63,260 nucleotides of DNA from Acidimicrobiia bacterium. GTDB taxonomy: Bacteria > Actinomycetota > Acidimicrobiia > Spongiisociales > UBA5794. The notes under the pieces are model-generated. The model did not search any database, was not told where the DNA came from, and saw nothing but the letters and a program-made list of their open reading frames with translations. The stretch is from the NCBI GenBank assembly GCA_036396535.1, contig DASWKR010000072.1:1-63260 (forward strand), read 5' to 3'. This document shows positions 51,078 to 53,133 of this stretch, piece by piece. Made by a program: the position numbers and the translations under genes. The first letter of the stretch is position 1. Every line of letters begins with the position of its first letter.

Positions 51078-51263
51078 CACGAGACCCATGCATTCGATGT
51101 TCGCGGTCGCTGTCGACGGCGGCGACGCTCCTCAGGCTCGGCCACCCCGCTGTCCAGGGGAGGATGCGCGCCACCGAGACGTCCCGATCAGGCGGCTCGG
51201 CGGAGGGGTCATCGTGCTGTGCCGGCGGGGCGTCTCACCTGCGTCGAAGGAGAGAGTGGGAGC

Positions 51264-52340
51264 ATGACGCTTCAACGCGACGCTCCGGTCCTCGAGAGGC
51301 TGTCGACGCTCGACCGGTTCCTTGCGCTGTGGATCGGCGCTGCCATGGTCGCCGGGCTCGTCCTGGGACGGCTGATTCCGGACCTCAACGACTGGCTCGA
51401 CACCGTCAAGATCGGCAGCGTGTCACTTCCCATCGCCGTAGGCCTGCTGGCGATGATGTACCCCGTGCTGGCCAAGGTCCGGTACTCACAGATCGGCGAT
51501 GTCGCCACCGACCGCACACTCATGGCCACCTCGCTGACTCTCAACTGGGTCGTCGGCCCGGCCCTCATGTTCGCTCTCGCGTGGCTGCTGCTCCCCGACC
51601 TGCCCGAATACCGCACCGGGCTGATCGTCATCGGGCTGGCCCGCTGCATCGCCATGGTCCTGATCTGGAACGATCTCGCCTGCGGAGACCGGGAAGCTGC
51701 CGCGGTCCTCGTCGCCGTGAACTCTGTCTTCCAGATCGTCGCCTATGCCGTCCTCGGCTACCTCTATCTCGAATTGCTCCCGGGATGGCTCGGCCTCGAT
51801 ACCACCAGTCTGGACGTGTCGATGTGGGAGATCGCAAGGATCGTCCTCGTCTTCCTGGGCATCCCCCTCGTCGCCGGATACGTGACGCGGCGATGGGGTG
51901 AACACAGCCGCGGGTTGGAGTGGTACGAGAACCGGTTCCTCCCCAGACTCGCCCCTTGGGCCCTCTACGGGCTCCTGTTCACGATCGTCGTGCTCTTCGC
52001 CCTCCAAGGGGAAACCATCACCGCCCGACCCTTCGATGTCGCCCGTATCGCAATACCACTCCTCCTCTACTTCGTCCTGATGTGGGCCTCTTCCTTCGCC
52101 TTGGGTTTGCGCCTTCGCATGCCCTACCCCAAGAACGCGTCGATGAGTTTCACCGCGGCCAGCAACAACTTCGAGCTCGCCATCGCCGTTGCCATCGGCG
52201 TGTTCGGGGTGACGTCAGGCGAAGCTCTCGCCGGCGTCGTCGGACCCCTCATCGAAGTCCCGGTCCTCGTCGGACTTGTCTACGTCGCCCTCTGGGCGCG
52301 GCGACGCTTCTACCCGACCTCCACGCTGGAGCCGGCGTGA
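51264..52340 (+). CDS. acr3: Arsenite efflux transporter, Acr3 family
   Basis: Ten-helix membrane exporter of 358 residues for arsenite. LWIGAAMVAGLVLGRLIPDL and KIGSVSLPIAVGLLAMMYPVLAKVRY are the family's opening. The functional Cys128 lies in GLARCIAMVLIWNDLACGD, which is nearly invariant, and SFTAASNNFELAIAVAIGVFG is the second motif. GTG/ATG choice: ATG 51264 with GGGAG upstream. No arsR or arsenate reductase gene is adjacent; the only ArsR proteins in the window belong to SRPBCC pairs. It stands alone. Confidence 0.95.
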   Translation: MTLQRDAPVLERLSTLDRFLALWIGAAMVAGLVLGRLIPDLNDWLDTVKIGSVSLPIAVGLLAMMYPVLAKVRYSQIGDVATDRTLMATSLTLNWVVGPALMFALAWLLLPDLPEYRTGLIVIGLARCIAMVLIWNDLACGDREAAAVLVAVNSVFQIVAYAVLGYLYLELLPGWLGLDTTSLDVSMWEIARIVLVFLGIPLVAGYVTRRWGEHSRGLEWYENRFLPRLAPWALYGLLFTIVVLFALQGETITARPFDVARIAIPLLLYFVLMWASSFALGLRLRMPYPKNASMSFTAASNNFELAIAVAIGVFGVTSGEALAGVVGPLIEVPVLVGLVYVALWARRRFYPTSTLEPA

Positions 52341-52569: not shown

Positions 52570-53133
52570 CTATGTCAGCGGCCGCCCGGTCTCGTCCATC
52601 CACTCCTCCGGGTGAACGCCGAGAGCCTCGGCAACCCGATTGATGTAGTTGAACCAGGCGCACACCTGCACCGCGTCGTGGACCGCACGGTCGTCCCAAC
52701 CGGCGCGGCGCAGCTCGTCGACGTCGCCGGCGGTGCAGGCGATGGGGGTGAGGGTGAGCTTCTCGGCGAAGGCGAGGAGCGCTTCGGTCGCTTCGTCGAG
52801 GCCGGCGGTACGCCAATCCTCGGTGAACCGGTCCACCATCTGTTGGTCGGCGACCTCCAACCTGAGGTCGTGTAGATGCGCCCGGATTCAGTAGTGACAG
52901 CCGTTCGCCTTGGAGGTGACAACGGCGATCATCTCCCGCTGTGCCCGGCTCAGCGGTGACTCACCGAACATGACGGTGGCGTAGAAGCGCATCGAGTCAC
53001 CCATCGCCGGGCCGTTCTGGCTCATGATCGAGACGATGTTCCAGATGCGTCCCGCTCGGCGCATCGCCTCGTCGTAGGCACGCTTCGTCGCCCCGGTGGC
53101 GCTCTCGGGCGGGATCTCCTCGATGTGCGGCAC
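52570..53133 (-). CDS. AhpD/peroxidase-related enzyme, probable selenoprotein (in-frame TGA)
   Basis: Carboxymuconolactone-decarboxylase-fold peroxidase-related protein. Read through one TGA at 52890-52888 the frame is 187 residues, the family's normal length, with good family sequence on both sides. The TGA is codon 82 and falls exactly at the second Cys of the CxxC redox site: Cys79-His-Tyr-TGA-Ile-Arg-Ala-His86. A Cys-to-selenocysteine exchange here is known in AhpD-like selenoproteins. A stem-loop fitting a bacterial SECIS lies 17 nt past the TGA (52851-52870). I chose GTG 53133 (VPHIEEIPPE) as homologues begin there. A sequencing error or broken gene would look alike, but a chance TGA at this codon with a SECIS is unlikely. 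Confidence 0.78.
52851..52870 (-). promoter_or_regulatory. Predicted SECIS element
   Basis: On the minus strand, CGACCTC and GAGGTCG form a perfect 7-bp stem with the loop AGGTTG. The loop has a G in its first two positions and lies 24 nt from the TGA, inside the 16-37 nt range of bacterial SECIS elements. The loop resembles the AGGTCT loop of E. coli fdhF. Confidence 0.7.

Follow-up and report, generated by a model that had tools for sequence, protein, structure and literature searches.

A probable selenoprotein of the AhpD-like TIGR01926 family, with a conserved SECIS-like hairpin, in an Acidimicrobiia genome

A minus-strand gene in an Acidimicrobiia draft genome almost certainly specifies an AhpD-like selenoprotein (TIGR01926 family), with a redox role that we assign by analogy to studied relatives. 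The gene lies in a stretch of 63,260 nucleotides (contig DASWKR010000072.1), hereafter the window. This reading is based on a TGA codon at the position of the second cysteine of a CxxC motif, on the presence of the selenocysteine machinery in the genome, and on the conservation of both the codon and a hairpin located immediately downstream of it.

Reading frame, protein family and active-site residues

The frame from 53133 to 52570 is interrupted by exactly one internal stop codon, the TGA at 52890-52888, and the same frame continues on both sides (Table 1). The residues surrounding codon 82 are Cys79-His-Tyr-TGA-Ile-Arg-Ala-His86. Thus, the original prediction of a single TGA replacing the second Cys of a CxxC motif within one continuous frame was right in every detail. 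The starts of the orthologues fall on the same residue as that of the TIGR01926 gene, and the frame is common to all of them through the TGA.

Table 1. Features of the selenoprotein gene in the window, and related loci in the sister family
Feature	Position	Strand	Remarks
Selenoprotein gene, TIGR01926 peroxidase-related / AhpD-like	52570..53133	-	187 aa with Sec82; start GTG, stop TAG
In-frame TGA, codon 82, second position of CxxC, read as selenocysteine (predicted)	52888..52890	-	TGA in 33/33 aligned orthologues
Cys79 codon, partner of Sec82	52897..52899	-	Invariant alignment column
Glu67 codon	52933..52935	-	Invariant column; by spacing Glu118 of M. tuberculosis AhpD (residue roles PMC3141380)
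His86 codon	52876..52878	-	Invariant column; by spacing His137 of M. tuberculosis AhpD (residue roles PMC3141380)
SECIS-like hairpin CGACCTC-AGGTTG-GAGGTCG	52851..52870, loop 52863-52858	-	Conserved in orthologues against codon bias
E2-adjacent orthologue loci, sister family	L081 (G050:C5:76000-88000); also L028, L029, L060, L061, L062		

With the TGA read through, the 187-aa protein scored 140.2 bits against the NCBIfam model TIGR01926 (peroxidase-related enzyme, cut-off 81.8) and 49 bits against Pfam CMD (cut-off 23). The cut-offs were not reached for the classical AhpD model TIGR00777 (24.4 bits versus 192) or for NF041238 (AhpD_rel_CFYUT, 59.4 bits versus 175). The latter describes the AhpD-related (seleno)protein CFYUT, which has a related domain with CxxU, yet forms a family separate from the gene described here. 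The CxxU redox motif, C79-H-Y-U82, is the one published for TIGR01926 AhpD-like selenoproteins.

The predicted structure had a mean pLDDT of 96.7 and a TM score of 0.88 to the solved AhpD-like proteins 6k40 and 2oyo, with which the sequence shares 33-35% identity. Taken together, 6k40 (Deinococcus radiodurans AhpD), 2oyo and 3c1l showed TM scores of 0.85-0.88, 31-35% identity and the same relay residues, but they carry CxxC and no Sec. Glu67, Cys79, position 82 and His86 were invariant in an alignment of 18 sequences that included both Sec and Cys forms, and Cys stands at position 82 in two distant homologues (L050 and L055). In M. tuberculosis AhpD, the residues Glu118, Cys130, Cys133 and His137 are part of a proton relay (PMC3141380), and their spacing is that of E67, C79, U82 and H86. 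The M. tuberculosis protein differs in having Cys in place of Sec and His132 in place of Tyr81, and it belongs to a different subfamily, as seen from the TIGR00777 score of only 24 bits.

Selenocysteine machinery and conservation of the codon and hairpin

The original prediction named a search of the genome for selA, selB, selD and tRNA-Sec as a check, and all of these are present in the draft assembly (94 contigs, 3.13 Mb, 96% complete). The tRNA-Sec with anticodon UCA scored 72.7 bits (Rfam cut-off 47), SelA and SelD were matched with E-values of 4e-102 and 6e-118, respectively, and selB directly follows selA. SelA was also identified in 84 of 99 relatives. Family searches of the source genome identified a Sec-type TGA in at least four genes, which is a minimum count. 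The original statement on the rarity of selenoproteins in such actinobacteria was therefore wrong.

Besides the TIGR01926 gene, these include a paralogue with approximately 40% identity (C47:2850-3311, L052), which contains CHYU and a hairpin with a GGTCT loop after the TGA, and which by its sequence is a second AhpD-like selenoprotein of this genome. In a CMD-family gene (C17:70564-70812, L083), the motif ACHYUGVQRS contains a TGA in frame, and the product is a probable third CMD-type selenoprotein. The SelD gene (C35:175508-176434; L018, L058) carries its own in-frame TGA (GAG-U-ACK), and SelD is thus probably a selenoprotein itself.

Among the 99 relatives, orthologues with 55-75% identity were found in ten other genomes, each match containing exactly one TGA; a scan of genome contigs matched three relatives, one of them close. 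When 296 genomes of the class were sampled, 45 close homologues were obtained, counting the source gene, and each of them likewise contained exactly one TGA. The codon-by-codon alignment placed it at codon 82 in every aligned orthologue and never showed Cys at this position. Each of these sequences, which represent many genera, keeps a single frame with no gap. The alignment of homologues at codon 82, also proposed with the original prediction, thus showed that related species carry TGA there, which makes a miscalled base very unlikely. In relatives close enough to measure, pN was well below pS both before and after the TGA, and the gene is under purifying selection on both sides of the codon. 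Of 21 relatives with an orthologue that were checked for SelA, 20 gave a match; the genome of the exception is 56% complete.

Several more divergent copies were observed. In a second subfamily, with approximately 40% identity, all members but one have TGA at this site, and a potential hairpin particular to the subfamily, with the loop GGTCT, follows it. The exception (L035 / L085, G028:C116) has TTA (Leu) at this site and has kept the hairpin region; no SelA was found in its genome (79% complete), and the TTA represents either a recent loss of Sec or a base error. One relative contains a degenerate copy (L084, G094:C146:14300-15900) with an intact C-terminal half, in which the CxxU part is unrecognisable in frame. 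A homologue with 48% identity, a TGA and a similar hairpin was found in a planctomycete assembly (L049, CP070691.1, Phycisphaerales MAG), which may reflect horizontal transfer or a binning error.

The hairpin consists of 7 perfect base pairs and the small loop AGGTTG after a spacer of 17 nt from the TGA. The distance from the TGA to the apical loop is 24 nt, and a G is present at loop position 2. The stem length, loop, spacing and early G were all borne out as originally described. In the source gene, the structure was not beyond chance, with 163 of 2000 synonymous recodings being as stable, and when the 49-nt stretch was folded freely, another register was favoured (z = -1.2). The argument for a SECIS element therefore rests on the relatives. 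The Rfam SECIS_1 model gave no match in the source genome, but it was also silent in 14 control genomes, so that its silence says little. Scanning the window and the remaining Sec loci with Rfam gave no match either.

Some of the relatives belong to a low-GC genus (genomes of ~1 Mb, 31-34% GC), in which the third codon positions of the gene are 23% GC overall. Four codons of the hairpin are nevertheless CTC (16/17), CGG (17/17), TCG (17/17) and GAG (17/17), whereas outside the hairpin the same genes use CGG for 2 of 155 Arg, TCG for 12 of 221 Ser and CTC for 15 of 307 Leu codons. For five low-GC sequences, the observed stability was reached by none of 2000 synonymous recodings in three cases; the remaining two had 2 and 49 such recodings among the 2000. 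That the hairpin retains codons seldom used in the remainder of these genes suggests selection acting on an RNA element, the putative SECIS.

Across 25 distinct sequences, pairing was observed in 85.5% of the cells, as compared to at most 52% when the partners were slid. The column pair 21-34 was CG in 11 sequences, UA in 11 and UG in 3, and the loop G at column 26 was invariant. Much of the covariation tracks one split in the tree, but the same double change is seen in two high-GC sequences (L026 and L029). The lower stem pairs (columns 19-36 and 20-35) have been lost in the low-GC group, suggesting that the upper stem and the loop are probably the functional core. The hairpin is kept from high-GC relatives down to ~32% GC, in orthologues ranging from about 32% to 68% GC.

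Alternative readings of the codon and of the function

Three other explanations of the TGA were considered. A Cys codon (TGC or TGT) could have been mutated in a pseudogene or misread, and the draft state of the assembly and the degenerate copy in one relative would fit such an explanation; it is made extremely improbable by the presence of TGA in all aligned orthologues, by the purifying selection that goes on past it and by the conserved hairpin. Equally improbable is that the TGA is a true stop separating two short proteins, the second translated from a TTG restart at 52860. The list of open reading frames does give frames of 107 and 96 aa, but with termination at this codon a single domain would lose its CxxC active site, and each orthologue keeps one frame with no gap. 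With a suppressor tRNA or a changed code, the codon could also be translated as Cys or Trp. tRNAs that decode UGA as Cys do occur naturally, and distant homologues have Cys at this place. This reading is nonetheless very unlikely, since the genome contains a canonical tRNA-Sec(UCA), SelA, SelB and a TGA-bearing SelD, and since the conserved hairpin is an element required by SelB and not by a general suppressor. Ordinary genes also end in TGA, such as the neighbour upstream of the selenoprotein gene, and this implies context-dependent recoding with no changed genetic code. The orthologues and the machinery lead us to reject all of these readings, whether pseudogene, base error, true stop or changed code, and the prediction that the gene uses selenocysteine is supported by the same evidence together with the hairpin.

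If the protein is a selenoprotein, its task could still be other than peroxide defence, for example in the chemistry of arsenic or halogenated compounds. An ACR3-family arsenite efflux transporter gene (TIGR00832, 445 bits) is located convergently downstream at 51219-52340 on the plus strand, other AhpD-domain proteins are tied to arsenic (TIGR04169, NF041537), and the fold is shared with the debrominase Bmp8. However, the ACR3 gene is encoded on the other strand, and no counterpart was noticed in the short stretches that were read around the orthologues without a family search; both the TIGR01926 assignment and the relay residues favour AhpD chemistry. We consider such a role unlikely, and give little weight to ACR3 as a functional partner.

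Proposed mechanism, electron donor and relation to known selenoproteins

In the mechanism that we propose for the selenoprotein, which follows the established roles of SelB and SECIS elements, SelB carrying Sec-tRNA(UCA) would bind the hairpin just past the TGA, and Sec82 would then be inserted at codon 82. In the all-helical protein, C79 and U82 would form a fast redox couple, with E67 and H86 serving as a proton relay, and the couple would reduce hydroperoxides directly and/or an oxidised peroxiredoxin partner. The Cys/Sec pair would cycle between the selenol/thiol and the selenenylsulfide. A dithiol would return the latter to the reduced state, and dihydrolipoamide on the E2 of a 2-oxoacid dehydrogenase is a plausible candidate; other actinobacterial AhpD-like proteins have been shown to be reduced in this way. 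The more reactive thiol-peroxidase-like site that was originally suggested is plausible, but the main work of the protein may be that of a disulfide reductase or a peroxidase adaptor, as it is for AhpD.

The suggestion of an E2 donor comes from the sister family, in which five of six genera examined have the gene placed a few bases downstream of one encoding a lipoyl-domain E2. The gene order was E1-alpha, E1-beta, E2 and the TIGR01926 gene in the one sister-family genome with upstream genes typed, and judged from these sequences the E2 genes belong to a pyruvate-dehydrogenase-type operon. In the source genome, a lipoyl E2 neighbour is absent at the locus and the upstream neighbour is a quinone-oxidoreductase-like gene, so the E2 link holds here by orthology only. 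A Corynebacterium AhpD-like protein is reduced by SucB/Lpd/NADH (PMC10460364). Based on this case and on the E2 adjacency in the sister family, dihydrolipoamide on a 2-oxoacid dehydrogenase E2 is the most likely donor, to which we give roughly even chances. A broader proposal, that the Sec-AhpD clade is a selenium-dependent branch of peroxide defence powered by the lipoyl arm of the pyruvate/2-oxoacid dehydrogenase complex, is more tentative, with the balance somewhat against it. In the literature searched, we found no paper describing the pairing of E2 and selenoprotein AhpD genes.

The existence of CxxU AhpD-like selenoproteins, stated with the original prediction, is part of the published selenoproteome: 27 were reported in the 2005 Sargasso Sea study with CXXU (PMC1088965) and 299 in the 2008 GOS study (PMC2398784), and a 2026 review lists "AhpD-like protein, TIGR01926, CxxU" (PMC13188914). 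The gene described here thus belongs to a family known from ocean bacteria since 2005. It shares with the Sargasso Sea and GOS proteins (TIGR01926 / COG2128) the HMM family, a CxxU motif with Sec in the second position and a SECIS directly downstream. It differs in coming from a high-GC actinobacterial-type draft genome, in that the hairpin and codon are documented across relatives of widely different GC content, and in the link to a pyruvate dehydrogenase operon in the sister family.

Standard gene callers stop at TGA; in a lineage where selenocysteine use is widespread, they consequently overlook the protein or break it in two. With their wide GC range, the orthologues provide an unusually clean natural case of a bacterial SECIS that selection has maintained in the face of codon bias. 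For the TIGR01926 CxxU selenoprotein family, the operons with an adjacent E2 gene suggest an electron donor that can be put to the test; if the lipoyl-powered scheme is true, a complex of central carbon metabolism would directly fuel a selenoenzyme.
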